Shown here: positions 2 to 27,049 of the stretch, in pieces
Numbering within the stretch: the first letter of the stretch is position 1
Layout: every line of letters starts with the position of its first letter
From: a virus
IMG/VR virus record: IMGVR_UViG_3300032156_000061
Span: 1 to 27,689 of that record
Length of the DNA: 27,689 nucleotides
Strand: one strand, 5' to 3'
Notes under the pieces: generated by a model
Database searches by the model: none
Told to the model about the DNA's origin: nothing
The model's input: the letters and a program-made list of their open reading frames with translations, nothing else
Made by a program: the position numbers and the translations under genes

Positions 2-1132
2 ACGCAGTCGCCTGAGATCAGGAAATCAGTTAAAAATGTGCAAGGGCAAGAAGGGACTATTCCGCTAAATCTTATCGATAAGGCAATGGGTAAAGAACCT
101 ATTCCGGAATATACTGCAGCTAAACTTATGCTCAAGAAAGCAGAAGAGCAGGGTATAAGGGTGCCGTCTCAAGGGGTCCGAGCAGCACTACAGAAAGTAG
201 TAGATATAGGGCCACAAGCTCCGCAGCAAGAAGCCGGTGTGAAAGAGATTCAGAAATGGTTGGATAAATATATACCGAAGGCTGAAGCAGCTACAACTCC
301 TGGTCAGGTGCCCCTTAAAGAAGTAACAGTTCCCAAAGAATTCTCCCCCTCTGGGAAGCCACAGATGCGAATTGATGAATTGTCACCGCAAGCCGCAAAC
401 CAACTAAAATCCATTGCAGGTAAAGGGGACATTCCCCCTACGGTCGCCGAACGAGTAAAACAGCTCATGGCCGAGAAAGTTCCGTATGGGGAACGTGGTA
501 AAGATTTCCTTGAGAAGCAGTACCAAAAATCTGCTTTTGCAATTCGCCAAGCAATCAAGGAGACTATGGGGAAATCAGGCTTTTCGGAATATGAGCCAGC
601 TATGAAAACAACGGCCCTAAAAATGGGAAGGGCAGCACCCATACAGAAAATTCTGGGAAACAAGGATATTCTGCGTGCGGAAGGCGGAAATTGGGAGAAA
701 AGAGCAGAAAATTTACTGAAAAAGGCTTATAATCCGCAGGATCCTTTCGGCGAAAATCCCCACATGAAAATTTTGAAGCGTTTTGATGAGGTATGGGGGA
801 CCAATTTTGCGGATGAAGCTCAGGCCTTGGGTATAGCCAGACAAATGGGCGGTAAAACAGGGCCTACTTCAGGCCTGCCAATTTTCTCACGGCTGGAAAC
901 AGGCCGAAGTCTGCTAGGCACGATTCTATCCGCAGGACTAGGTTATGGAAGTCATATGGCTGGGGCATCCCCTACAGCATCTATATTAGCAGGTACGGCT
1001 GGGATGGCAGCACAATCCCCTGCGGCATGGAGAGAAGCTATTTCTGCTGCTCCAGGAGTTGCCCGTTCACTTACCGCGGCCCCCGCTTTGGGATTACGCC
1101 AACGAGCTCTCAAAAAATCGATGGGGGAGTAG
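2..1132 (+). CDS. Probable virion-associated protein, 3' part (5' end cut by window edge)
   Basis: The frame is open from the first complete codon at position 2, and there is no Shine-Dalgarno site in front of the first GTG/ATG near 36-38, so the true start lies upstream. About 376 residues are visible. Most of it is charged, lysine-rich and probably helical. The last 90 residues (from about GRSLLGTILSAGLGYG) become glycine/alanine-rich and hydrophobic and could be membrane-active, as in DNA-ejection or internal virion proteins of podovirus-like phages. The stop codon (1130-1132) sits inside the ribosome-binding region of the next gene, so the two are translationally coupled. I recognise no catalytic motif. 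The assignment to the virion rests on position directly upstream of the fibre genes and on composition, so it is weak. Confidence 0.55.
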   Translation, partial: TQSPEIRKSVKNVQGQEGTIPLNLIDKAMGKEPIPEYTAAKLMLKKAEEQGIRVPSQGVRAALQKVVDIGPQAPQQEAGVKEIQKWLDKYIPKAEAATTPGQVPLKEVTVPKEFSPSGKPQMRIDELSPQAANQLKSIAGKGDIPPTVAERVKQLMAEKVPYGERGKDFLEKQYQKSAFAIRQAIKETMGKSGFSEYEPAMKTTALKMGRAAPIQKILGNKDILRAEGGNWEKRAENLLKKAYNPQDPFGENPHMKILKRFDEVWGTNFADEAQALGIARQMGGKTGPTSGLPIFSRLETGRSLLGTILSAGLGYGSHMAGASPTASILAGTAGMAAQSPAAWREAISAAPGVARSLTAAPALGLRQRALKKSMGE

Positions 1133-1133
1133 T

Positions 1134-2285
1134 GTGGCCCTTCCCTATTATCCTCTCAGTAATGCCGGCGTTAATGATGCTGTCAAGATCAACGCCGACC
1201 TTAACTACCTCGACAACAGGCTTGCCGGAGCTACAGGCCTACAGGGTCCCCGGGGGCAGACTGGGGTAAGGGGTAGTCCTGGAATTGATGGTTCTCAGGG
1301 CATTACCGGTGCTGCCAATTTTATAGATAATTCCGACGTCCCTTTCACTCCGGTAAATATTACCCCCTCGCTTTATTGGTCCGAATACAACGAAGCTTTG
1401 TACGCCAAGACGAACGGATCCACAGGAGCCTACGTCCAAATAAGTGCCGGGAGTCTTTCTGGAACTACAGGACTACAGGGGCCTACTGGAATTCAGGGCG
1501 GAATAGGTCAAACTGGAATTCAAGGTCAGACGGGTGTTCAGGGGCCTACTGGAATTCAGGGCGGAATAGGTCAAACTGGAATTCAAGGTCAGACGGGTGT
1601 TCAGGGGCCTACTGGAATTCAAGGGATGCCAGGTGTAACCGGACTTGCATTGGGGCAAACCGGAATTCAGGGTGGAACAGGAATTCAAGGTCAAACAGGA
1701 ATTCAGGGTAGAACTGGAATTCAAGGTCAAACAGGTCTTGGACCTACGGGGCTGCAGGGTCCAACAGGGGCGTATGGGGGGCCACAGGGTAATACAGGCC
1801 TTCAAGGACAGACTGGATTACAAGGCCCTTTTAATAATCCATATGCTTATATGTGCCAAGGTGATGATGTTATAAAAAATACGATTTTAACCACAGTTGG
1901 TTATTATAATTTTCAAGGCTTTGCATCTCAAATAACAAGTGGTATAACTGCCGACACAACTGAGAGAGTTGCAATAACAGCTGGCAATGACGGTATATAT
2001 GCGGTAGGATTTGGGCTAAGTTGTATTCCTGTATATGCTTACCCTACCTACGTAAAAATATATATTGCAAAAAATAATGTTAATACATCTATAGCTGGAG
2101 ATATAGATAATAATGAGGGTCAACTGGATTCTACTAACTCTTTTTCTTGGAATCCATGCAGCAGTGCTGGTCTTTTGGATTTGGTAAGTGGGGATTATAT
2201 AGGGTTGAGAATTTATAATCCTTTCAATGTCAGGGTAGAGATGTGTATTAGGCATGCCGGATTATATGTGTATAGGATAGCTTGA
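1134..2285 (+). CDS. Collagen-like tail fibre / receptor-binding protein 1
   Basis: This is a structural protein of about 383 residues. I place the start at GTG 1134 because GGGGGAG (1123-1129) lies just upstream and the previous gene stops at 1132. The frame also opens at a TTG at 1059, but that would overlap the previous gene by 74 bases with GGAG directly abutting the codon. The N-terminus (MALPYYPLSNAGVNDAVKIN...) resembles that of the fibre at 5255 (...DATQVNRNFTDL), so it is probably the virion-anchoring end. Two Gly-X-Y blocks follow, a short one near 1226-1310 and a long one at 1462-1830. Both are rich in GPT, GIQ and GQT triplets and almost free of proline in the Y position. The C-terminal 150 residues are non-repetitive and beta-rich and are probably a trimeric head domain. 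Such proteins form triple-helical shafts. Confidence 0.8.
   Translation: MALPYYPLSNAGVNDAVKINADLNYLDNRLAGATGLQGPRGQTGVRGSPGIDGSQGITGAANFIDNSDVPFTPVNITPSLYWSEYNEALYAKTNGSTGAYVQISAGSLSGTTGLQGPTGIQGGIGQTGIQGQTGVQGPTGIQGGIGQTGIQGQTGVQGPTGIQGMPGVTGLALGQTGIQGGTGIQGQTGIQGRTGIQGQTGLGPTGLQGPTGAYGGPQGNTGLQGQTGLQGPFNNPYAYMCQGDDVIKNTILTTVGYYNFQGFASQITSGITADTTERVAITAGNDGIYAVGFGLSCIPVYAYPTYVKIYIAKNNVNTSIAGDIDNNEGQLDSTNSFSWNPCSSAGLLDLVSGDYIGLRIYNPFNVRVEMCIRHAGLYVYRIA
1476..1620 (+). repeat. 63-bp tandem direct repeat coding 21 residues of collagen-like sequence
   Basis: Two consecutive 63-bp units (1476-1538 and 1539-1601) read as near-identical or identical by eye, and a partial third starts at 1602. The unit codes seven Gly-X-Y triplets. 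The period is a multiple of nine bases, so gain or loss of a unit keeps both the reading frame and the Gly-X-Y register. This points to recent slippage or recombination. Confidence 0.85.
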
Positions 2286-2309
2286 TATTATGTTGGGGTG
2301 TGATTACTA

Positions 2310-3410
2310 ATGTCGTGGCCACAATTACCTACTGACGGGCAATCTTATGTCAATCCGCTAGGAACGACCTATATCTATAGGTCGCTCACTAACTCGTGGA
2401 ACATACAGGTCAGTAATATTGGGGTCACCGGCTTTCAGGGCCAGACGGGAATTCAGGGTGGAACGGGAATTCAGGGTATCACCGGATTAGCATTAGGTCA
2501 AACTGGACTTCAAGGTCAGACGGGAATTCAGGGTGGAACGGGAATTCAAGGTATCACCGGATTAGCTTTAGGTTCCACTGGAATTCAGGGTCCTACAGGT
2601 GCTTATGGAGGACCTCAGGGAGTTACAGGCTTTCAAGGCCAGACAGGAATTCAGGGTCAGACGGGTGCAAATGGTGGACAATATTATGAATCAGTAGCTA
2701 TAGCTGATACATGGATAGATTCTGGGCATAAAGATACAAATTATGGGCATAATAGTACAGTTAGTATCGCTTCTGCTTATGGATACAGTGAATCTAGACC
2801 CTTTTTCAGATTTGATACTACAGGACAGTCCTCTGCTGGCCAACCTGGATCGATAGTTACTCAGGCATGGATTACATTTAGAGCCTCTCAACTCTATATT
2901 AGCAGTCCATTGCAACACGAGTTGTATTATACTCGGCAGAATTGGACGGAATATGGCTGTACCTATAATAAATATGATGGAACGAATAATTGGATAAATT
3001 TAGCCGGATTTGCAGAACCCGAAACTGACATGATATCATGCGGCTCAGTTGTATTAGATGGTGGTACAAATGATTATACTATTGCATTGAATTCTCACGG
3101 ATGTTCCGTTTTAAATAATATGATATTGGCTGCTGATAGTACTGGATCATTTACTTTAGATTCTTATCCACACTATAATAGCGGGTGGCTATATTGGGAT
3201 ATAAATACAAGGGAAAATGTTGTCCCCAAGCCTACATTACATTTTTTCTACGCTCCAGCAGGTAAACCGGGTCTGATAAACTACAGCTACAGCAGAACTA
3301 TCGATGGCGGTGCAGCGGCGTCGGTTTATTTACCCACCCAGAAATTCGAGGGTGGTGCAGCGGCGTCGGTTTATTTACCCACCCAGAAATTTGATGGGGG
3401 ATATGCATAA
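2310..3410 (+). CDS. Collagen-like / DNRLRE-type tail fibre protein 2
   Basis: The protein has 366 residues. The N-terminus ([23 protein letters not shown]) is followed by Gly-X-Y triplets at about 2430-2670, then a region like the DNRLRE domain of secreted and phage proteins ([19 protein letters not shown]... then FFRFDTTG, the usual conserved Asn-Tyr-Gly and Arg-Phe positions). The C-terminus carries a 15-residue unit twice in tandem ([15 protein letters not shown], then the same ending FD), a motif seen at the ends of phage fibre and baseplate proteins. The stop overlaps the next start as TAATG at 3408-3412, so the genes are coupled. Function is inferred as a fibre or host-range protein, and no enzymatic motif is visible. 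Confidence 0.78.
3306..3395 (+). repeat. 45-bp tandem duplication at the C-terminus of fibre protein 2
   Basis: The unit at 3306-3350 is repeated at 3351-3395 with only one or two base differences. It codes the 15-residue unit beginning [14 protein letters not shown]. The near-identity suggests a recent duplication. Confidence 0.85.
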
Positions 3411-4444
3411 TGGCAGACATTCTTCAGGTCCGCAGGGACACAAGTTCAAACTGGCAAGCCGTGAATCCTACTATGGCCCAGGCCGAATTGGGCTATGATT
3501 TATCCTATCATGCTTTCAAGGTAGGGGATGCTACTAGCAATTGGAATGCGCTGCCTTGGTCTGGCCTTGGCATGACGGGCATGCAGGGTATAACAGGAAT
3601 TCAGGGCGGAACCGGATTACAAGGCCAGACAGGTTTTCAGGGTAAAACAGGAATTCAGGGTCAAACTGGTATTCAGGGCGGAACCGGCGTTGCAGGTCAG
3701 ACAGGTTTTCAGGGTCAAACTGGAATTCAGGGTGGAACTGGAACTTCTGGAGTTACAGGTTTAATAGGCTCTACGGGTTTACAGGGCCAGACTGGAATTC
3801 AGGGTCAGACAGGATTCCAAGGTCAAACCGGAATTCAGGGCGGAACCGGATTACAAGGCCAGACAGGTTTTCAGGGTAAAACAGGAATTCAGGGTGGGAC
3901 TGGAGTACAGGGCGGAACTGGTGTAGCAGGTCAAACTGGATTACAGGGCCAAACTGGAATTCAGGGTCAGACAGGATTCCAAGGTCAAACCGGAATTCAG
4001 GGTGGAACTGGAATTCAGGGTCAGACAGGTTTACAAGGTCAAACAGGCCTACAGGGTCAGACAGGAATTCAGGGTTCGACAGGAATTCAAGGTGGAACTG
4101 GAATTCAGGGTCAAACTGGTATTGTAGCCTTCGCCCAATACAACGCCGGAACTTTTACTGGTGCTGCCCAGCTTATTGATTGGGCCAATGGTAAAAAGCA
4201 GAAATTATCCATGGGCATGTGTACTGGACTGCAGATCTATTTTGCCGGCGGAACTCAAGGATCCAACACTCAGTTGATTTGTGATTACCTTGGAAATTAT
4301 ACTCCTAAGGGATTCACTGGCCTTCAGGTTCCGGGTGGAACTGCAATAGTATTTACTGGACAAACAGGAATACAGGATGTGGTAAGCGTATATTATGATG
4401 GGACAAGGTTCATGGGACAATCAGCACTCAACTTTAAATGGTAA
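3410..4444 (+). CDS. Collagen-like tail fibre with major tropism determinant-type N-terminus
   Basis: The protein has 344 residues. Its first 50 (ILQVRRDTSSNW...AELGYDLSYHAFKVGD...WNALPW) match the pattern of the N-terminal domain of the Bordetella phage major tropism determinant (Mtd_N): R-x-G/D-T, E-L-G-Y, K-x-G-D, W-x-x-L. That domain is the virion-attachment part of many receptor-binding proteins. An uninterrupted Gly-X-Y tract follows (3571-4122, about 180 residues), the longest in the window, made mainly of GQT, GIQ, GGT and GLQ. The last 105 residues form a separate beta-rich domain and are the likely receptor-binding tip. The start ATG overlaps the previous stop (TAATG). I saw no reverse transcriptase or template/variable repeat pair, so there is no sign of diversity-generating retroelement variation here. 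Confidence 0.82.
   Translation: MADILQVRRDTSSNWQAVNPTMAQAELGYDLSYHAFKVGDATSNWNALPWSGLGMTGMQGITGIQGGTGLQGQTGFQGKTGIQGQTGIQGGTGVAGQTGFQGQTGIQGGTGTSGVTGLIGSTGLQGQTGIQGQTGFQGQTGIQGGTGLQGQTGFQGKTGIQGGTGVQGGTGVAGQTGLQGQTGIQGQTGFQGQTGIQGGTGIQGQTGLQGQTGLQGQTGIQGSTGIQGGTGIQGQTGIVAFAQYNAGTFTGAAQLIDWANGKKQKLSMGMCTGLQIYFAGGTQGSNTQLICDYLGNYTPKGFTGLQVPGGTAIVFTGQTGIQDVVSVYYDGTRFMGQSALNFKW
3571..4122 (+). repeat. Long Gly-X-Y (collagen-like) coding repeat tract
   Basis: This is a continuous tract of 9-bp-register repeats, most coding G-I/L/F-Q-G-Q/G-T. The hexamer GAATTC recurs in many units because Gly-Ile-Gln is usually written GGAATTCAG. Similar units appear at 1462-1830, 2430-2670 and 18154-18270. The shared DNA sequence makes recombination between these genes likely. 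Confidence 0.85.
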
Positions 4445-7064: not shown

Positions 7065-7255
7065 TGGGCGAGCTCAAAGAGGGTATTAAAGAGGAGCACG
7101 AGCACGCTTCTCTTTATAACAAGCTTAAGGATCCGGGTATGCCGGCCAAAGCATTCTACCGTGGGATTGCTATGGCCCATATTAAAGAGGACCCTGAATA
7201 TTACACCAAATTGGAAAATGCTATGCGAAAAAAAGCTTTAAAGAAGGCTTTTTGA
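7061..7255 (+). CDS. Small protein, DUF5661-like
   Basis: The protein has 64 residues. It could start at ATG 7061 or ATG 7064, and the run GGGGGG just upstream suits the second better. The sequence ELKEGIKEEHEHASLY...AHIKEDPEYYTKLENA fits small phage proteins of the DUF5661 type (G-I-K-x-E-x-E-H, then A-x-x-H-x-x-E-D-P-x-Y-Y-x-x-L). The function is unknown. It is the last plus-strand gene before the convergent sugar operon and overlaps the end of the GNAT gene by 18 bases. Confidence 0.55.
   Translation: MMGELKEGIKEEHEHASLYNKLKDPGMPAKAFYRGIAMAHIKEDPEYYTKLENAMRKKALKKAF
7228..7253. terminator. Possible bidirectional terminator between convergent operons
   Basis: AAAAAGC (7230-7236) and GCTTTTT (7247-7253) form a stem with a 10-base loop. 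It lies where the fibre operon (plus) and the sugar operon (minus) meet, and each transcript would end in a U-run. The stem is short and A/T-rich, so termination strength is uncertain. Confidence 0.4.
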
Positions 7256-7642
7256 GTAGGTGAACTGAATAAGCTCGAATCCAAGGCTTTTGAATAGCTT
7301 CTGACTTCGAATATTCCTTGGCGACACATTTGCCAGGAGCCTCTGCCCTTTATATATAGATTCTATATATTTTATTGCTTCCCGCCCATACCCCATCCCC
7401 TGAAATACTACATCAATAAAGATGCCTATCTCATTGAGTTTAGTCACGTAGCAATAACCTATCTTTAAATTGTTATCTTCGATAATCTTGTAAAACGGAT
7501 AAGGGTTAGATTGAACGAATTCGCAATGGTCGTGGTAGGTCGTCCCCGGTTTATGGCTGATATTAATGGAAGCGTTCCGCTGCTGCAATAATAGCCACAG
7601 GAAGTCCCTATCATTCCAGGTTATGTCCCTATAGGTTGTCAT
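7238..7642 (-). CDS. GNAT-family N-acetyltransferase (sugar cassette)
   Basis: This 134-residue protein fits an acetyl-CoA-dependent N-acetyltransferase. The acetyl-CoA-binding motif A is seen as QGMGYGREAI (Q/R-x-x-G-x-G/A), followed by the typical NVSPRNIRSQKLFKSLGFE (N-x-x-S-x-x-x-F-x-x-x-G-F). The N-terminus has the L-x-x-R-N element. In pseudaminic and legionaminic pathways a GNAT enzyme (PseH/LegH) acetylates the amino sugar made by the aminotransferase. The position directly after a PseB-type dehydratase and an aminotransferase fits that role, although the substrate is inferred. The start overlaps the upstream gene by 14 bases. It is the last gene of the minus-strand operon. Confidence 0.75.
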   Translation of the reverse strand: MTTYRDITWNDRDFLWLLLQQRNASINISHKPGTTYHDHCEFVQSNPYPFYKIIEDNNLKIGYCYVTKLNEIGIFIDVVFQGMGYGREAIKYIESIYKGQRLLANVSPRNIRSQKLFKSLGFELIQFTYSKSLL

Positions 7643-8537
7643 TAGATCTCACTTTAAAGCCCTCAGGTACTTCATTTCCTCGAGTCCTTAACTTACCAGT
7701 CCATTCATGATCAAACGGATAGATAACCCAGTAGTCACCACGATCATAACAGGTATAGGCCTCATGCTCAGATATCAGATCTTCATGAATCTTCTCGAGA
7801 GTCCTTAAGCCTGTTACAGTTATTTCAGGACTAATTTTATTTGCTTCATCCCACATGCGATAGCCCTTCATCTTAGGGATATAGAGACAGCCTCTCTCCA
7901 TGTCCTCTAATCGATCGATGCAGAATTTAGCGGCATCCTTAACGTCCCAAAAGAACCTGGTCATGTCCTTATGAGTAAGGAGAAGAGGAAGTTGATAATC
8001 AGCCCTATCCTTCCAAATGTTGAAAACTGATTTTGAGCTGGAATGCACATTACCGTATCTAACTGAAGCATACTGACAATCGCTGAAGTTATTCCAAGAG
8101 GCGAAGATCTTTTCTCCAATAAATTTCTCAGCGCCATAAACCGCAATAGGCTGGCATCCCTTGTCGCTAGAAACAAATAGGGCCTTTTTGATGCAGGCAG
8201 CATGACAGGCCTTAGCTACAGATAAGGTTCCGGTGACGTTCGTATGAAGGGACTGCTCAATGTTTCTCTGGTCACAGCGATCAATCATTTTCATCGCGGC
8301 CGCATGGATGAGCATGTCACAGCCTCTAATAGCCTGGGTAAGCCTGTCGGTGTCACAAATATCTCCTAAGACATATCTCATAATATTGTCAGGATACTCG
8401 GGCTTATCCAAAGCCATGGATTGCTGCTTACCTTCATCTCGAGAGTATATGACAATACGTGAACTGTAATCGTATGATTGTCGGACAATCTCCTGGCCCA
8501 GAAATCCCGCCCCGCCTGTTATCGCTATTCTCATCAT
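7629..8537 (-). CDS. PseB/CapD-type NDP-sugar 4,6-dehydratase (extended SDR)
   Basis: The protein has 302 residues, near the usual PseB length. The Rossmann motif is GGAGFLG (residues 8-14). LGDICD (57-62), HAAAMKMIDRCDQRN (78-92), SSDK (123-126) and YGAEK (134-138) follow, giving the catalytic D125, K126 and Y134. RYGNV, TRFFW, a G-x-x-Y-I-P-K-M segment and EKIHEDLIS complete the PseB/CapD pattern. The family dehydrates UDP-GlcNAc to a 4-keto-6-deoxy sugar, in PseB with C5 inversion. It would supply the keto sugar to the aminotransferase encoded just upstream. The start overlaps the aminotransferase stop (TAATG), and a second ATG three bases on is equally possible. All key residues are present, so the enzyme looks active. 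Confidence 0.85.
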   Translation of the reverse strand: MMRIAITGGAGFLGQEIVRQSYDYSSRIVIYSRDEGKQQSMALDKPEYPDNIMRYVLGDICDTDRLTQAIRGCDMLIHAAAMKMIDRCDQRNIEQSLHTNVTGTLSVAKACHAACIKKALFVSSDKGCQPIAVYGAEKFIGEKIFASWNNFSDCQYASVRYGNVHSSSKSVFNIWKDRADYQLPLLLTHKDMTRFFWDVKDAAKFCIDRLEDMERGCLYIPKMKGYRMWDEANKISPEITVTGLRTLEKIHEDLISEHEAYTCYDRGDYWVIYPFDHEWTGKLRTRGNEVPEGFKVRSNDNL

Positions 8538-10165
8538 TATACTCGCTTAAAAATTGGACGTGGGGGAAGACCTCTCAATTTTATTTTTCCTGCTCGTATT
8601 GATTCACACACTATTTTAGATTTGTTAATAATCAAATCCCATCCAGATGATAGAAAAGACATTCGAGGAAAAAAGGCCTTTCCAATTATAACTCCTCTAT
8701 TACACATTTCTTGCATATACTCGTTTAAAAAAGGTCCTTCAAAAATTGCTCGGGTAAAATAGCCCCTCAGTTGCACTACTCCCTTACAAACCTCATTCAA
8801 TAGCTGAGTTTTTTCTTCGCATAGTGTTATGAAGTTTTCTATTTTATCTTCTGATAGCCAGGAAAGTTCTTTTAAACAATTTTTGATTGGGGTCATTTCA
8901 CCAGAAAATGTGGTTGATACGAAAACTCCAGGAGTAACCATATCCTTAGTCATACCAACAAAAGCCAGCGAAGAACCGTAGGCCAGCCCTTTACCTAGAG
9001 TCATTAAATCAGGTTTTATGCCCCATTTATTTGCAAAACAAAATTTCTCGACTCTTCCCCCAGAAACAATTTCATCCATACATAGCGGAATATCAAAAGC
9101 TGTGCAGGCAATTCGAATTGCTTTTATTACATCTCTCACGCTTTCATCCAGCATTACAGGCTCTACGATTACTCCGCCTATTTTGTGATTAGGCCCAAGA
9201 GTATTCAAAAAATTCAGTAGGTCCCCATAACTATCAAACTTCGTGTACTGTTGATTGATAGTTCCTAATCCTGGATATTCCTCTGATATGAAAGTTTCTC
9301 CCCATCCATGATATGAAACGCCCAGAATTTTATTCTTGCCTGTTTTAGCCCTCATATAGCGTATAGCAGCATTACAGGCTTCAGTTCCGGTTTTAAGAAA
9401 TTTTACTTTATCCACGGGAAATAGCTGTGTTATTTTTTCAGCTAACAGCACTTCATATACTGTTGGAAGGGAAAATGATTCTGCACACTCATAAAGATTA
9501 GCACCTAATCCCGACATAGTATCAAAATATTTTCCTTGGTCAGTTATCAGATAATTACCTTCTCCGCCATAGCAATGAGTCGGATAGACTCCCTCAATGA
9601 ATTGATCAGGCCGTTTTGAGAATGTTCCCGTTCCATCCACAATCACTTTCTGAGCCCTTTTCCACCAAAAATCTGAAGGTGGCATTTCCTGCTTAAAGGC
9701 AAACTCACCATGAAGTTTATCAGCAGCTTTATTATACGCTTCTATTGCTTCTGATAAAGTTTTAAAATTTCCTATGCCATGTTTTTTTGAATTACTAGTT
9801 ATACATACTGTAAATTGATGAGTTTTTTGAACGAAATGAATATCTTTATAGCCTGTTTCGGTATCTTTATTAGGCCTTCTATTATAGGCATTTTCCTGAT
9901 GTAGACATATTCTTAGATTTGATTTTCTATTATCTATTGAGTTTCCATTGATGTGATCGATATCCAGATCTTTAGGAAAATTCAAAATCTCTTGATGCAT
10001 GAGAACATGCTTCAATTTCCCATTGCATACAAATCCCCTGTGAGCATAAAAACAATTTCCCTTTTTATGAACCGACCATTTGTATTTTGAAATTCTATCA
10101 AAATCATCATCGTCCACGATTGCATTTAGACTGTATTTTTTTCCTCCAAGTTTAATTAATTTCAT
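8537..10165 (-). CDS. AP2/HNH homing endonuclease fused to class III PLP aminotransferase
   Basis: This is one open frame of 542 residues with two unrelated parts. Residues 1-157 are a phage-type homing endonuclease: an HNH nuclease (LMHQEI..., DIDHINGNSIDNRKSNLRI) followed by an AP2-like DNA-binding segment ending KAADKLHGEFAF, where such free-standing endonucleases normally end. From about 161 the sequence is a glutamate-1-semialdehyde aminotransferase-like class III enzyme: TGTEACNAAIRYMRAKTGK, SYHGWGE, CMDEIVSG (PLP-binding Asp364) and LGKGLAYGSS (Schiff-base Lys392). Met161 follows AGGAA closely, so the aminotransferase might also start internally at 9685. A strong AAGGAG precedes the endonuclease start. 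In the cassette the enzyme would aminate the 4-keto sugar, although PseC enzymes are usually DegT-type. Confidence 0.85.
   Translation of the reverse strand: MKLIKLGGKKYSLNAIVDDDDFDRISKYKWSVHKKGNCFYAHRGFVCNGKLKHVLMHQEILNFPKDLDIDHINGNSIDNRKSNLRICLHQENAYNRRPNKDTETGYKDIHFVQKTHQFTVCITSNSKKHGIGNFKTLSEAIEAYNKAADKLHGEFAFKQEMPPSDFWWKRAQKVIVDGTGTFSKRPDQFIEGVYPTHCYGGEGNYLITDQGKYFDTMSGLGANLYECAESFSLPTVYEVLLAEKITQLFPVDKVKFLKTGTEACNAAIRYMRAKTGKNKILGVSYHGWGETFISEEYPGLGTINQQYTKFDSYGDLLNFLNTLGPNHKIGGVIVEPVMLDESVRDVIKAIRIACTAFDIPLCMDEIVSGGRVEKFCFANKWGIKPDLMTLGKGLAYGSSLAFVGMTKDMVTPGVFVSTTFSGEMTPIKNCLKELSWLSEDKIENFITLCEEKTQLLNEVCKGVVQLRGYFTRAIFEGPFLNEYMQEMCNRGVIIGKAFFPRMSFLSSGWDLIINKSKIVCESIRAGKIKLRGLPPRPIFKRV
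9686..10165 (-). mobile_element. AP2/HNH homing endonuclease module inserted at the 5' end of the aminotransferase
   Basis: Residues 1-160 of the fused gene make a complete HNH plus AP2-like homing endonuclease. The likely metal-binding residues are in DIDHINGNSIDN. Such genes normally stand alone or sit in introns. Here the stop codon is missing and the frame runs on into the enzyme. I found no intron-like sequence at the junction. Confidence 0.7.
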
Positions 10166-10371
10166 ACATACTCCTTTTTGTCACCCAGCTCGTCGGTACA
10201 TTCTTCATAGCTGATTTTGACTCCTGAGTCATACCATTCCTCCACTCGCCGTAGAAGTATTTTCGCATCATGTACAGTAGCGGACTTCCAGCTATCCCCC
10301 AGAACAGCTACGGGAATAGGAATGAAATGCCCGCGCATTCCAATCTTACTCACATTAGCTTTCATGATCAT
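10162..10371 (-). CDS. Small protein of unknown function in the sugar operon
   Basis: The protein has 69 residues (starting MIMKANVSKIGMRGHFIPIP), with no family I recognise. It is soluble and mixed-charge, with an acidic C-terminus. Its start overlaps the stop of the cytidylyltransferase gene and its stop overlaps the next start (ATGA), so it is embedded in the operon. Its 3' end holds the AAGGAG site that drives translation of the endonuclease-aminotransferase fusion. Confidence 0.6.
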   Translation of the reverse strand: MIMKANVSKIGMRGHFIPIPVAVLGDSWKSATVHDAKILLRRVEEWYDSGVKISYEECTDELGDKKEYV

Positions 10372-11027
10372 TGCGGTGGCTCCTTTGCCGGAACATTATT
10401 AAAGGGCGCTTCCATAAGGCCTGCAATCCTGTCGAGATCTTCCTGTGTGTCAACCGATAGCTTGACCATATCAAAAAGATTAATAGGAGGCCTCCAATAC
10501 ACGCAACGTAATTGCTCCCGTTCAGCATACTTGGGATTTATGTAGACATGTGCCGTAACATGCTCCCGGTCGCTCCCTCTAGCATATTGATTCAGCCAAT
10601 TTACAGTTTTGCGTGACATAATTTCAATGTCGTTTCCGTCAATCTCAAACCTATTTTCCGGATTGCAGTTGCTGGTAAAATCCGCCCGAAGCATTTTATG
10701 CAGGTTGATCATGTAAAATAGCCTTGACGGATCAAGAACGGGGCAATCCCCCGTGAGCCTGATAAAATCCGTTTCGTGTCGCAACTTTGATATTACCGTA
10801 TGATATCTTAATAGCGGTTCGAACGGGCCGGTGAAAAATGGAATTAAAAGATTATTAAAATACTCCTGAATTTCAACGTCTTCATCCGGCACGATAAAAT
10901 AGGTTTCTGGCACGACTGAGATTACCGTTCGGTAAAGCATTTCGCTGATGCTCAGTTTACCCAACATGGCTTTATATTTACCGGGAAACCTTGTGCTATC
11001 ACTTCGGGCCTGAATGAGTGCTATCAT
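10368..11027 (-). CDS. SpsF-type cytidylyltransferase (CMP-sugar synthetase family)
   Basis: The protein has 219 residues. It opens with IALIQARSDSTRFPGKYKAM, the nucleotide-binding pattern I-Q-A-R-x-x-S-x-R-x-P-G-K of SpsF and CMP-KDO/CMP-NeuAc synthetases. FTGPFEPLLRYHTV and FIRLTGDCPVLDP follow, matching the conserved R-Y and R-x-T-G-D-C-P-x-x-D (metal-binding Asp) segments. The family transfers CMP from CTP to a sugar acid. In this cassette it would activate the product of the NeuB-type synthase. The length and all core motifs look normal. Its start overlaps the stop of the oxidoreductase gene (ATGA). Confidence 0.82.
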   Translation of the reverse strand: MIALIQARSDSTRFPGKYKAMLGKLSISEMLYRTVISVVPETYFIVPDEDVEIQEYFNNLLIPFFTGPFEPLLRYHTVISKLRHETDFIRLTGDCPVLDPSRLFYMINLHKMLRADFTSNCNPENRFEIDGNDIEIMSRKTVNWLNQYARGSDREHVTAHVYINPKYAEREQLRCVYWRPPINLFDMVKLSVDTQEDLDRIAGLMEAPFNNVPAKEPPQ

Positions 11028-11653
11028 GTTATCAACCCCTCTACTTTATACGTTGCCTCTTGTGCCTCAGCTATTCCCCATAGGGATGTAGGATCCTTTA
11101 TCCATTGTTTGATCATTCTTATGTATGACAAATCAATATCGCCGAGGGAAACTGATAGATTATTAATTTGGCACTCGAAGCGATCACCTTTATCGGATAG
11201 CTCCGGCATGCTACGGTCCAAATAGATAAGTTGAATTGCATCCCAGAAAAGGCCGTCTTCGCCGCTGATCCAATTCGAATAGCGAACGGAATTTGATTTC
11301 GGAAGCAACCGAACAGCATCAGACACGACGAACGACCAATTACAAACCATGCGAAAATCCACATCAAATTCCTCACACATTGCCTGTGTATATTCAAGCT
11401 GTTTCCAGTATTTCGTCACCGGCTTTTCGCACAAAAGCGGAACACCGGGCCAGCTTTTGCATACCAACTCGATATCGCTGTAATGGCTTGCGGTCGGCGT
11501 GGCAACTATGCATGCGTCAATCGATTCAGGAAAAGGCATAGTCGGGTCCTTTATGTCAAGCTGAACGACTGAGAACGGGAAATTTCTCCGCAGGATAGCA
11601 GCGTACCGCCGGCCCATTCGGCCTAGACCGCCAATCACAGCAATTCGTTTCAT
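11024..11653 (-). CDS. Short Gfo/Idh/MocA-family oxidoreductase
   Basis: The protein has 209 residues, against about 320-350 for the usual family member. The NAD(P)-binding motif is IAVIGGLGRMGRR (G-x-G-x-x-G). ACIVATPTASHYSDI and LCEKPVTK follow, the latter being the conserved E-K-P. The C-terminal substrate domain is much reduced. Members of this family occur in legionaminic and related sugar clusters. Here it could reduce or epimerise an intermediate, or be a shortened remnant. The stop and start overlap both neighbours (ATGA on each side), so the gene is well integrated in the operon rather than freshly broken. Confidence 0.72.
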   Translation of the reverse strand: MKRIAVIGGLGRMGRRYAAILRRNFPFSVVQLDIKDPTMPFPESIDACIVATPTASHYSDIELVCKSWPGVPLLCEKPVTKYWKQLEYTQAMCEEFDVDFRMVCNWSFVVSDAVRLLPKSNSVRYSNWISGEDGLFWDAIQLIYLDRSMPELSDKGDRFECQINNLSVSLGDIDLSYIRMIKQWIKDPTSLWGIAEAQEATYKVEGLIT

Positions 11654-11916
11654 TCAACCCTCCACATTCTCAGTAACGTTTCGCTGACAGACTTCCCCCG
11701 ATACTCAATCTTTTTCTCCGTCACCGTAGTCGTCACCCGATAGCCCTCACTGATAGCCCGGCCATACAGGTCACCGCGGGCACTCTTGATGTTTACCAGC
11801 CCCGCTGTGGGAATTTCCACGCAATCCCCGACAATCAAGGAAGACCACGGGATATTATCCAGCCATGATTTTCGGTGCCGAACCGGTAAAGGGACGTCTT
11901 TCAGAATTTGGTACAT
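11650..11916 (-). CDS. Small phage protein of unknown function
   Basis: The protein has 88 residues. The middle, SSLIVGDCVEIPTAGLVNI, and the end, LLRMWRVE, resemble small phage proteins with a V-G-D/E-S-F/V core and a terminal R-V/M-W-R, sometimes labelled DUF7303. This is recalled by eye and tentative. It overlaps both neighbours, by 16 bases with the synthase end and by ATGA with the oxidoreductase. Its presence inside a sugar cassette suggests that phage genes and sugar genes are co-transcribed. Confidence 0.5.
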   Translation of the reverse strand: MYQILKDVPLPVRHRKSWLDNIPWSSLIVGDCVEIPTAGLVNIKSARGDLYGRAISEGYRVTTTVTEKKIEYRGKSVSETLLRMWRVE

Positions 11917-12551
11917 TCGAGAACCTCTTTCGGCCTCAGGGCGAAAAATCCGTCAGGGCAATTTGATTTATCTTCCAATTGCATATGGAACTCGATACAA
12001 GGGCACCCCGAATCAATAGCTTTCTTAATCCCATAGGTTCCTAGGCCATGATATGATAGCCCATCGAAATGCTCCCACATGCTGGGGTGAAAGGTCACCG
12101 GAACCAAATCAGGGTATGAGCCGGGATGTGGCAATAAAAGCTTCTTGATCTTACCCGGAGCCCCCAATCCTACAGCCGGGGTCATTAAGTCGGCATAAGA
12201 ATACGTGATATAGATTTGCTCCATGGTTTCAGGAACGACCAGCTCTTTAAAAATTTCATAGTTATGACGCTGGGAGTAGGCAATTTTTGCCCAGGTAACA
12301 TCCATCGTCGCTAACTCACGAGCGAGCCGAGGCGTGAAGACTGAGCATGAAATATCAAGGTGCTCCTGGGCATAGGCTATCAGCTCGGGCATTAGATTTG
12401 CCGGCAGATAGACGTTAGAGCCTGCTGTCTCCCGGGGGAACAGTTGAAACTTGCCGTACTCCAGGCCGCAGTCCTCCGCGACACTGATAAGTTCTCGGGC
12501 CCTTTTAAGTGAGCCTAGGTGGCACGACCCAAAATCAGCTATGAGTTTCAT
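11901..12551 (-). CDS. Short NeuB-type nonulosonic acid synthase homologue
   Basis: The protein has 216 residues. It follows the NeuB/SpsE/PseI TIM-barrel order: IADFGSCHLGSL...A then YGKFQLFPRET (K-F-Q), ISCSVFTPR, TWAKIAYSQ (K-I-A-S type), FDGLSYHGLGTYGIKKAI (S-D-H type) and CPCIEFHMQLEDK...PDGFFAL (E-x-H). The family condenses phosphoenolpyruvate with an N-acyl amino sugar to give a nine-carbon sialic acid-like sugar. Usual members are about 340 residues with a C-terminal SAF domain. Here the SAF domain and part of the barrel are missing, so activity is plausible but unproven. The start overlaps the upstream small membrane protein stop (ATGA). Confidence 0.72.
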   Translation of the reverse strand: MKLIADFGSCHLGSLKRARELISVAEDCGLEYGKFQLFPRETAGSNVYLPANLMPELIAYAQEHLDISCSVFTPRLARELATMDVTWAKIAYSQRHNYEIFKELVVPETMEQIYITYSYADLMTPAVGLGAPGKIKKLLLPHPGSYPDLVPVTFHPSMWEHFDGLSYHGLGTYGIKKAIDSGCPCIEFHMQLEDKSNCPDGFFALRPKEVLECTKF

Positions 12552-22547: not shown

Positions 22548-22578
22548 ATTACCTATATTATTGTTCGGAGGTAATTTA
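22545..22578 (+). promoter_or_regulatory. Hairpin covering the endonuclease ribosome-binding site
   Basis: TAAATTACC (22545-22553) is perfectly complementary to GGTAATTTA (22570-22578). The 3' arm includes the end of the GGAGG site and the first base of the start codon. The stem would lower translation of the following homing-type endonuclease from the long late transcript. Confidence 0.5.
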
Positions 22579-23036
22579 TGGAGTATAAAAAGTGTGTCAG
22601 GTGTAAGGAAAAGAAACCCGTATCGAAGTTCAGTTTGAGGCATAGAAATGATGATCGCTACAAAAAGAAGGATTATTATTTTAGTGCTTGCAAGGATTGT
22701 GAAAAAGAGTACATGCGAGAATCTAAAAAGAATTCTTACTCAGGATCACCTGAATGTACTCGGGAGCACAACCTACGAAAATATGGGATTACAACCGAGC
22801 AGTATGACACTATGCTGACCGAACAAGGGAATGTATGCAAAATCTGTAAGTCTCCTACAGCGGGAGGCAGAGGGCGCTTTCATGTTGATCATGATCATAG
22901 AACTGGTGAGATCCGTGGACTTTTGTGCCACAGATGTAACACAGCTCTTGGATTAACTAATGAAGACACAAGCATACTTTCTAAGATGATTCACTACATC
23001 AACGCAGGAGATTTATATGGCTCTCACGTACAATGA
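22578..23036 (+). CDS. Endonuclease VII-type HNH endonuclease (free-standing, mobile)
   Basis: The protein has 152 residues. The N-terminal zinc-binding part has CVRC (residues 6-9) and CKDC. The nuclease core is KYGITTEQYDTMLTEQGNVC, CKIC, FHVDHDHRTGEIRGLLCHRCN and ALGL, the classical recombination endonuclease VII signature with H-V-D-H-D-H. Such genes often behave as free-standing homing endonucleases in phage genomes. It separates the scaffold and capsid genes, and its last 20 bases overlap capsid exon 1 in another frame. It might cut the intron-free capsid gene and so help the adjacent ORF-less intron spread. Confidence 0.85.
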   Translation: MEYKKCVRCKEKKPVSKFSLRHRNDDRYKKKDYYFSACKDCEKEYMRESKKNSYSGSPECTREHNLRKYGITTEQYDTMLTEQGNVCKICKSPTAGGRGRFHVDHDHRTGEIRGLLCHRCNTALGLTNEDTSILSKMIHYINAGDLYGSHVQ

Positions 23037-24801
23037 AATATCTGCCATTTGTCAATGACGTGGTGGCAGTAAAATCCGGTAAATTGCTGGAACATCCCTA
23101 TGGGACAATCAGCAGCCAAGCTTAGAGGGAAACCTCTTTGAAGGTTCAGAGACTAAGGAAAGCCTAAACTCGCAAGAGCATGGCGATAATACCTGCCCGA
23201 TAAAACGGGTACGCCGGACACCGAATGAGGTGATGATATAGTCCGCTCTTACTGGTAACAGTAAGCTAACACAAAGACACGGAGAAGTACTTCAAGCCCA
23301 AATTAGTGGATTAATTGAAAGATGTGGTCCACGTTAAATCGCTGGTGATTACTTGGAACCTCCTATTATTTTAATAGGACAACCAGAGGCAAGCCAGGAG
23401 ACATCATGAACGCAGCTTATGTAGCAGGATTCTTTGACGCAGATGGATGCTTGAGCCTGAGATACGGTCGAGAAGGCCGTGCTTTTTCTCTTTATGCCAT
23501 CGTCGTTCAAAAGAATAATACTGTTACCCAGAAGCTGCTTGATTATTACGGTGGGAGTATGGGCATTGTCAAAAGAGGCAAGCGTACTTATTACCGTTGG
23601 GTGATGTCAGGACAGGCAGTTAGAGTCTTTTTAACCGACATAGAGCCTTATGTGATCGATAAGCGTGAACAAGTCTTACTTGGGATTGATGCCATCGATC
23701 ATCAAAAGGAATGTGGTAACAGACGCTATCTGAAAGGCGTATGTGGCATACAGCCTTTATCAAAGCATGCAAAAGCATATCGCAAGAGCATGTGGCTCCG
23801 TATGAAGGAGCTTAATACCTGTCATAAATCCTTTGCAGCCGCAGAGACTAAGTCCAGCGACCCTGAAAAGGGATGCGATAGTCCGGCCCTGGCAGTAATG
23901 TCAGGAGGGGCAGCCAAAGCCCCCGCTATCCGTAAGATAGCGTAACAAAGCGAATATCTTTAAGTCCAACGTCCTTCTTGCTCGTCTGCGTGACAAGCAG
24001 GAAAAACAGGACGGCGGAGAAAGAATCCTGTTGCCCGTTGCTTATGCGACGACAACAGCGGCTGGCTCATATGTAGGCGCTGACACTTTGTCAACTACAC
24101 CGAATGACCAGATCACGTCCGCAGAGTTCATCTGGAAACAGTACTATGCGAATATCACCATCACCGGACTTGACGAATTGAAAAACAGCGGAGACGCTGC
24201 AAAAGTCTCGTTTGTCAAGTCGAAGGTCCAGCTTGCCGAAAAGTCAATGGCGTACGCTATGGGTAATGATATCTATACCGGAACTGCCGCTGCGGCCCTC
24301 GTTGGTCTGCAGACGGTCGTTAGCACAAGCCGTTCCTACGGTGGTATTGACAGCTCTTCCTATAGCTGGTGGGATGCTCAGGTTGACAGCACGACTACAG
24401 TGCTCACCATCCCGAAGATGGAGAGTCTCTTTGGTCTTTGCACAATCGGAAACGTTCATCCTACGCTTATCGTCTGCACCCAGGCGATTTGGGACAGCTA
24501 CTTCAGCTTGCTTCAGCCGCAACAGCGATTCATGGACAGCAAGATGGCCGATGCTGGATGGTCCAACGTGACCTTCCGTTCGGTTCCAGTCGTGGTCGAT
24601 AATAGGTGCCCTACGTATTACATGTTCCTGCTCAATGAAGAGTACATCAAGTTGTACACGCATTCCAAGCGTGACTTTAAGCTGGAACCTTTCATTAAAC
24701 CTGTCAATCAGGACATTGCAACGGCGAAAATCTATTGGGCAGGCATTCTGGCATGCGACAATCCACGTCTCCAAGGCGTATTCAGCGCTCTTGCTGCTTA
24801 A
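23017..24801 (+). CDS. Major capsid protein, split into three exons by two group I introns
   Basis: Exon 1 starts at ATG 23017, six bases after AGGAG, and reads MALTYNEISAI up to about 23049/23050. Exon 2 (about 23277/23279-23311) reads TEKYFKPKLVD. Exon 3 (23953-24801) reads NIFKSNVLLARLRDKQEKQD and continues to the stop. Joined, they give an uninterrupted protein of about 304 residues with the usual N-terminus of this capsid family (E-I-S-A-I, F-x-P-K-L-V-D-N-I-F-x-S-N-x-L-L) and, later, PVAYATTTAAGSY, WKQYYANITITGLDELKN and KSKVQLAEKSMAYAMGN. Without splicing, exon 1 meets a stop at 23056-23058 and exon 3 follows a stop at 23938-23940. Introns must therefore be removed for the phage to make capsids. 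Confidence 0.85.
23051..23276 (+). ncRNA. Group I intron 1 (about 226 bases, no ORF) in the capsid gene
   Basis: The conserved elements are in order: P4 GCTGG 23086-23090 with TCAGC 23109-23113; P5 TCCC 23095-23098 with GGGA 23102-23105; Q-type CAATCAGCAGCCAAGC; R GTTCAGAGACTA 23144-23155; S GATATAGTCC 23235-23244 (P7: GACTA with TAGTC); and a P9 hairpin CTTACTG-GTAA-CAGTAAG 23248-23265 with a GNRA-type loop. P1 is CTGCCATT 23042-23049 with 23062-23069, ending in U-G pairs. Ends are uncertain by one or two bases. 23051-23276 ends in G but adds a tyrosine to the protein. 23050-23278 gives the family-like ITEKYF junction and a P10 of three pairs but ends in C. Confidence 0.85.
23277..23311 (+). 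other. Micro-exon of the capsid gene between two group I introns
   Basis: Only 33-35 bases, coding TEKYFKPKLVD (plus a possible preceding Tyr). The peptide supplies exactly the residues missing between exon 1 and exon 3 in the capsid family pattern. Its 3' end GTGGAT is the P1 strand of intron 2. Confidence 0.8.
23312..23952 (+). ncRNA. Group I intron 2 (641 bases) with LAGLIDADG ORF in the capsid gene
   Basis: P1 is exon GTGGAT (23306-23311) with GTCCAC (23327-23332), closed by the U-G pair at the splice site. P10 joins exon 3 ATATC (23954-23958) with GATGT (23321-23325). P5 is TCCTATTA 23361-23368 with TAATAGGA 23372-23379. R is GCAGAGACTAAG (23841-23852) and S is GATAGTCC (23877-23884), with P7 GACTA and TAGTC. 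P8 is CCCT-GAAA-AGGG 23861-23872. P9-type hairpins follow, including CCTGGCA-GTAA-TGTCAGG and CGCTATC...GATAGCG. The intron ends in G23952. The ORF lies in the P6 position between P5 and R and overlaps the 3' core. Confidence 0.88.
23406..23945 (+). CDS. LAGLIDADG homing endonuclease encoded in intron 2
   Basis: The protein has 179 residues. AGGAG lies six bases before the ATG. The motif AYVAGFFDADGCL is at residues 4-16, with the catalytic Asp in the D-A-D-G part. Only one clear motif is present, so it probably works as a dimer. The middle (YGGSMGIVKRGKRTYYRWVMSG) is the usual beta-rich DNA-binding region. The last 45 residues run through the R, P7, P8, S and P9 elements of the intron, so coding and ribozyme sequence overlap there. 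It would cut intron-free capsid genes near the exon 2/3 junction. Confidence 0.88.
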   Translation: MNAAYVAGFFDADGCLSLRYGREGRAFSLYAIVVQKNNTVTQKLLDYYGGSMGIVKRGKRTYYRWVMSGQAVRVFLTDIEPYVIDKREQVLLGIDAIDHQKECGNRRYLKGVCGIQPLSKHAKAYRKSMWLRMKELNTCHKSFAAAETKSSDPEKGCDSPALAVMSGGAAKAPAIRKIA

Positions 24802-25936: not shown

Positions 25937-27049
25937 ATGGATTCTATGGCAGTGAATGTAGATCCAGTGGTAGTCAATCAGTACGAAGCTCGAATCAAGG
26001 AGCTTACTGATCAGATAGCGCAGATGCAGCGGACCATGGTTCCTATGCAACTCATGTTCCAAAGCACCATTGATGCACCACCTATTGCCAAAGAGGGCCT
26101 CTATCAGCAATCATGTGGTAATGACGCTGTCACTATCAATCATTTTGCTGAGAAGTGGCTCGATCATATGAAACGGAATTCCGCCAAGTATGATGTGCAG
26201 CATAAAACAACTATGCTGACCTATGGCAAGTATGCTTATCGACCGGTGATTTGTGCCGGGTCTGGGCCGTCCCTTAAAAAGAACGCCCATCTCCTTATCA
26301 ATAAGCCTACCGAGATAGGCCTTGTTAGCTGCCTCCATAACTATGCGTACTTCACGGACCTTGGTATTAAAACGGATGGATATGTGAACCTGGACGCAGG
26401 GGATATCACAATCCCTGAAATGAGTCAGGGTGGAAAGCACCCCGCGGATTATTATTGGGATGCTTCGAAAGACTGTACGCTTATTGCAGGATTAGTTTCG
26501 AAACCCGAACTACTTGACAAGTGGAAGGGTGAGATTCTTTTCTTCAATTCGCCAGTCCCTGATCAGGCATTCATGGAGCAGTCGGCCAAGATCTGTGATT
26601 TACAGGTTTATTATAACGTGGGTGGGAATGCTCTTGGGGCCTGTTATTATCATGCCCGGGCGGTTCTCGGGGCGATGCCTATCGTGTTTATCGGTGCGGA
26701 TTTTGCTTTCGATTACACGAGAAAGTTTCATTCCTGGGAATCACCTTATGATAAGCAGTTCGCAGGGGTCGTTCCTTACACGGATATCTTTGGCAACAGA
26801 GTATTCACGTGGCCCAGCTATGCTAATTTCGCTGCGTGGTTTGTCCATCAGTCGCTCGGCGGGAATGGTAATAATCCTGTAATGTTCGTGAATTGCACAG
26901 AAGGTGGAATTCTCGGGGCTTATCCCAATGGTAATATTCGTACTATCACTCAGATGGCCCTGGCGGATTTCTTGACAATGTACACTCACCACAAGCTGAC
27001 TCCCGAGTTGGTGAAGGGTGAAGTTGAAAAACCAAAGTTACTTTTTTAA
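25937..27049 (+). CDS. DUF115/Maf-like protein, candidate virion glycosyltransferase
   Basis: The protein has 370 residues. Residues 15-40 form a short coiled coil. The core has AGSGPSLKKN (107-116, the G-S-G-P-S-L signature), LDAGD (152-156), YNVGGNALGACYYHARAVLG (226-245), IVFIGADFAF (249-258), a nearby H265, and CTEGG (320-324). This is the order of the DUF115 / motility accessory factor (Maf) family. Maf proteins attach pseudaminic or legionaminic acid to flagellin, and a branch (MptE) makes a pterin diphosphate. In a phage that also encodes a nonulosonic acid cassette, glycosylation of head or fibre proteins is the better guess. Its ribosome-binding site lies in a strong hairpin. Confidence 0.72.
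   Translation: MDSMAVNVDPVVVNQYEARIKELTDQIAQMQRTMVPMQLMFQSTIDAPPIAKEGLYQQSCGNDAVTINHFAEKWLDHMKRNSAKYDVQHKTTMLTYGKYAYRPVICAGSGPSLKKNAHLLINKPTEIGLVSCLHNYAYFTDLGIKTDGYVNLDAGDITIPEMSQGGKHPADYYWDASKDCTLIAGLVSKPELLDKWKGEILFFNSPVPDQAFMEQSAKICDLQVYYNVGGNALGACYYHARAVLGAMPIVFIGADFAFDYTRKFHSWESPYDKQFAGVVPYTDIFGNRVFTWPSYANFAAWFVHQSLGGNGNNPVMFVNCTEGGILGAYPNGNIRTITQMALADFLTMYTHHKLTPELVKGEVEKPKLLF

Follow-up and report, generated by a model that had tools for sequence, protein, structure and literature searches.

The Capsid Gene and Its Exons

The window analysed here, a 27.7-kb IMG/VR virus contig, carries a major capsid gene (23017-24801, plus strand) that lies downstream of the terminase and portal genes and reads as three exons separated by two group I introns. 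The spliced 304-residue protein matches the NCBIfam model NF033394 (capsid_maj_Podo, 5.4e-77) and the PHROG major head protein family phrog_9953 (7.1e-65), which confirms the original prediction of a phage major capsid gene. Exon 1 (23017..23048, plus strand) encodes MALTYNEISA followed by the bases AT, and is delimited by homology to the relatives L002 and L003 and by a U.G pair of P1 at T23048. Exon 2 (23278..23311, plus strand) is a micro-exon of 34 nt, made of a C and the codons for TEKYFKPKLVD, whereas exon 3 (23953..24801, plus strand) runs from NIFKSN to the stop codon and is covered by the NF033394 and phrog_9953 matches of the spliced protein.

The exon layout is settled at the sequence level because intron-free relatives are continuous over the three exons. 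In this regard, L003 (87% identical) reads MALTYNEISSITEKYFKPKLVDNIFRSN and L002 (84% identical) reads MALTYAEISAITEKHFRPKLVDNIFRSN without interruption, so that the micro-exon, ITEKYFKPKLVDNIF, is read straight through in both of these 84-87% identical genes. Some 40 relatives at a greater distance also keep the TEKYFKPKLVD block uninterrupted. Both the micro-exon of 33-35 nt and an intron-free homologue matching across all three exons, as originally anticipated, are thus borne out. Between the window and L003, its closest relative, exon 2 has accumulated 7 synonymous and 0 non-synonymous changes, which we take as a sign of purifying selection acting on it in the reading frame of the capsid. 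The gene might instead go unspliced, with translation of the capsid protein starting further inside, for example from TTG 24031, where an open reading frame does begin. This is extremely improbable, as the relatives examined possess the first ~50 residues in conserved form, exon 2 is conserved with respect to L003, and the sequence AGGAG precedes the ATG at 23017.

Relatives of the capsid gene in genome contigs amount to one distant MAG contig. Among viral members of the window's capsid family, L247 (2186-2500) and L248 carry a different group I-like intron at ISA|ITEK, a position that differs by 2 nt from the insertion site of intron 1, and L282 (1480-1742) carries another one at STTD|NET; Rfam fails to detect those of L247 and L282. 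From these cases we infer that the family has been invaded repeatedly by introns. A second intron-1-like intron at the same site was not found, the nearest case being the different intron of L247/L248.

Other parts of the window also deserve a description. A minus-strand cluster (7238-12551) resembles those for nonulosonic acid synthesis, with genes for a PseB-like dehydratase, a class III aminotransferase, a cytidylyltransferase, a NeuB-like synthase and a GNAT acetyltransferase, and this aminotransferase (8537-10165, minus strand) carries an HNH endonuclease domain as an in-frame N-terminal fusion. Three ORFs with abundant collagen-like GxTGxQG repeats (1059-4444) probably encode tail-fibre or virion surface proteins, and an MptE-like (PF01973) protein is found among the structural genes (25937-27049), where L003 has a similar ORF in the corresponding position.

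Two Different Group I Introns

Intron 1 (23049..23277, plus strand) lacks an ORF and is recognized by the Rfam covariance model RF00028, Intron_gpI (23004-23265, model positions 1-253, 76.9 bits, E 3.7e-18); its boundaries are approximate, the in-frame end indicated by frame tests being A23277 and the family-standard end G23276. Its P1 pairs CTGCCAT with GTGGCAG (23042-23048/23063-23069) and its P7 pairs GACTA with TAGTC (23151-23155/23239-23243). The U.G pair that marks the 5′ site in P1 can be placed at T23048 (7 bp) or, alternatively, at T23049 (8 bp). The splice G is located 19 nt before P4, as can also be read from the sequences of the related introns in L029 and L046. The predicted guide (23059..23069, plus strand) consists of CGTG for P10 (23059-23062) followed by GTGGCAG for P1 (23063-23069), and would pair contiguously with CTGCCAT plus an in-frame CACG. 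Partial relatives of this intron detected by blastn include those of crAss-like phages and the psbA intron of S-PM2, among others.

Intron 2 (23312..23952, plus strand) holds its ORF after the 5′ strand of P6 and was delimited by a core descriptor and by an in-frame end at G23952, a terminal G at the position that homology requires. We find a P1 formed by GTGGAT/GTCCAC (23306-23311/23327-23332) with its U.G at T23311, a P3 of 7 bp (TCGCTGG/CCAGCGA, 23339-23345/23854-23860), a P7 formed by GACTA/TAGTC (23846-23850/23879-23883) and a P8, CCCTgaaaAGGG. This P3-P7-P8 core occurs in canonical order, and the combined descriptor was absent from all 3000 dinucleotide shuffles (0/3000); it is a stricter version, used because a generic group I descriptor that set no constraint on sequence proved unspecific (44/150 shuffles). 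Two sets of core elements, as originally claimed, are present. The two separate covariance hits that were expected reduce to the one for intron 1, since the Rfam model stays below threshold on intron 2 (10 bits, P4-P5 only). Searches by DNA pattern detected no close relatives of intron 2 in viral contigs; the same 3′ core motifs occur in an intron with a LAGLIDADG ORF in the capsid-type gene of L007.

The ORF of intron 2 (23406..23945, plus strand) encodes a putative LAGLIDADG homing endonuclease of 179 aa, with the motif AGFFDADGC and a match to phrog_5046 (7.1e-19); Pfam LAGLIDADG models, including LAGLIDADG_1, reach 2e-4, just under their cut-offs. Its phage homologues cover at most residues 1-138, and its last ~40 codons traverse the 3′ core of the ribozyme, with the stop codon inside TAACAAA.

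From their shared 3′ TAACA...G motif it had been suggested that one intron derived from the other, or that both had a common source. A derivation of one from the other is not supported: blastn between the two introns yields no matching word longer than 13 nt, which rejects recent copies of each other, and the motif is general, a G being found no later than position 11 from TAAC onwards in 81 of 83 surveyed related introns (the exceptions are L016 and L008). Altogether, we consider it highly probable (about 0.88) that this is the major capsid gene of an uncultured podovirus-like phage with two separately acquired, self-splicing group I introns 34 nt apart. Each ribozyme would pair the last bases of the exon preceding it with the guide sequence in P1 and use an exogenous guanosine to cut at the 5′ site so defined, and exon joining would then yield the 304-residue capsid protein.

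The 3′ End of Intron 1

The three exons restore the family-like N-terminus, as had been predicted, but not with the usual terminal G at the first junction: a 5′ site at T23048 combined with the family-standard G23276 results in a frameshift, and a common frame across the exons requires that intron 1 end after A23277 (or C23278). A cut after A23277 gives the junction CAT|CACGG, the product ISAITEKYF and a 4-bp P10 contiguous with P1. Each of the further ways of rescuing the frame that we tried changes conserved residues, and automatic prediction of 3′ sites from P10 proved too noisy for use alone.

One tentative explanation, which leaves the two-intron layout standing, is that the contig has one base in excess at the junction of intron 1 and exon 2, owing to an assembly error or a defective allele. 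Intron 1 as written would then give no in-frame capsid by ordinary splice rules, a reading we also hold tentatively. The position of G23276, which is that of the terminal G in related introns, speaks for such an excess, given that its use shifts the frame. On the other hand, the other listed reading frames are intact, a separate contig (L016) likewise seems to lack the terminal G, and the in-frame cut additionally forms a contiguous P10.

It is also conceivable, if rather unlikely, that intron 1 truly ends in A23277, its 3′ site being set by the P10 contiguous with P1 and not by a terminal G. This would account for ISAITEKYF in frame together with the 4-bp P10, and it finds a parallel in the first intron of L016, in which positions 6-15 after TAAC are free of G and a 6-bp P10 is combined with an in-frame junction, the capsid-family frame expected there being partly our assumption about such capsid proteins. 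Against it, the guanosine-site pair in P7 of intron 1 is an ordinary G-C, and a terminal G is, to our knowledge, near universal among group I introns, in agreement with the 83-intron survey. Nothing relevant to natural introns that end in A emerged from a search of the open-access literature. That intron 1 and the first intron of L016 are both natural A-ending group I introns, with 3′ sites set by a P10 contiguous with P1 beside a micro-exon, is a rather unlikely proposal.

Finally, both introns might end at the G of a CAAAG sequence (23276 and 23950), in which case the micro-exon would encode HGEVLQAQISGS in a frame that stays open to the end. Such a short stop-free alternative frame is unsurprising by chance, the conservation of the micro-exon lies in the TEKYFKPKLVD frame, and we judge this option very improbable.

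A Neighbouring Nuclease Gene and Intron Mobility

Immediately upstream, overlapping the capsid start, a free-standing ORF (22578..23036, plus strand) encodes a predicted Endo VII-type nuclease of the DHHRN family (PF02945, E 2.7e-24), a candidate partner of intron 1 in homing. It is 38% identical to g49 of S-PM2, a psbA-adjacent gene that we take to be F-CphI. In the alignment to g49, the ORF shows the DHDH, R, N and CX2C residues (VDHDHRTGEIR..CHRCN plus CKIC) described for the F-CphI (DHHRN) family (PMC6083498). The psbA system of S-PM2 resembles the window in that a group I intron lacking an ORF adjoins the gene of a free-standing Endo VII-type nuclease (PMC6083498), and part of its intron matches intron 1 (76.7% over ~84 nt); it differs in that the host gene is psbA and not a capsid gene.

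Because intron 1, itself without an ORF, adjoins an F-CphI-related nuclease gene, the arrangement suggests collaborative homing. In this line, L003 has the nuclease gene (81% identical) without intron 1, and L002 has neither, a distribution compatible with collaborative homing, though no proof of it. Alternatively, the Endo VII-type protein may be a common nuclease with no link to intron 1; L003 keeps it in the absence of the intron. On our reading, intron 1 probably spreads with the free-standing nuclease, as the psbA intron does with F-CphI, and intron 2 would be a conventional mobile intron encoding its own LAGLIDADG nuclease.

Micro-Exons between Group I Introns in Other Phages

The window is not alone in having a micro-exon between two group I introns. 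A single search pattern for two intron-1-type introns round a tiny exon detected 33 stretches in viral contigs, several of them in other capsid genes of unrelated viruses, and none in genome contigs; as placed by P1, these exons measure very roughly 10-50 nt, and the lengths are rough. A published precedent is the ribonucleotide reductase large subunit gene (rNDPL) of phiNIT1, where cDNA revealed a small exon between two group I introns (PMC11878797). The micro-exon between ribozymes that was originally noticed is real, and its description as unusual has to be qualified. PhiNIT1 shares with the window a small exon flanked by two self-splicing introns in one phage gene and differs in its gene, a ribonucleotide reductase, and in being a Bacillus myovirus; exon skipping in SIOphi is another precedent (PMC11878797). 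The mycobacteriophage LittleE likewise has a group I-type intron in its major capsid gene, with a LAGLIDADG-like ORF, but the intron is single, the ORF lies on the opposite strand and there is no micro-exon (PMC3706429).

The closest arrangements come from two IMG/VR contigs, L016 and L007, with capsid-type genes in which two group I introns surround a micro-exon, although these belong to other capsid families and occupy other insertion sites. In L016 (7320-8620), a micro-exon of 18 nt (NRDYEG) in a major-head-type gene is flanked by two group I introns that Rfam detects, the first of them seemingly without a terminal G, and the exon downstream shows a match to a major head family. In L007 (1395-2900), a LAGLIDADG intron with ambiguous splice sites is followed first by a micro-exon of ~44 nt and then by another group I intron, so that a LAGLIDADG intron is again paired with an Rfam-type one, in reversed order with respect to the window. 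A further gene, present in L313, L315 and L326, has many intron-1-type introns and several tiny exons; in L313 its downstream exon, too, matches a major head family.

Significance

Taken with L016, L007 and L313/L315/L326, the window suggests that capsid genes are recurrent targets of tandem introns. A structural gene in need of strong expression would here tolerate two ribozymes ~34 nt apart, a spacing at which P1 of one and P10 of the other would have to compete for a single tiny exon. Moreover, its first junction would offer a direct test of how strict group I ribozymes are for a terminal G.
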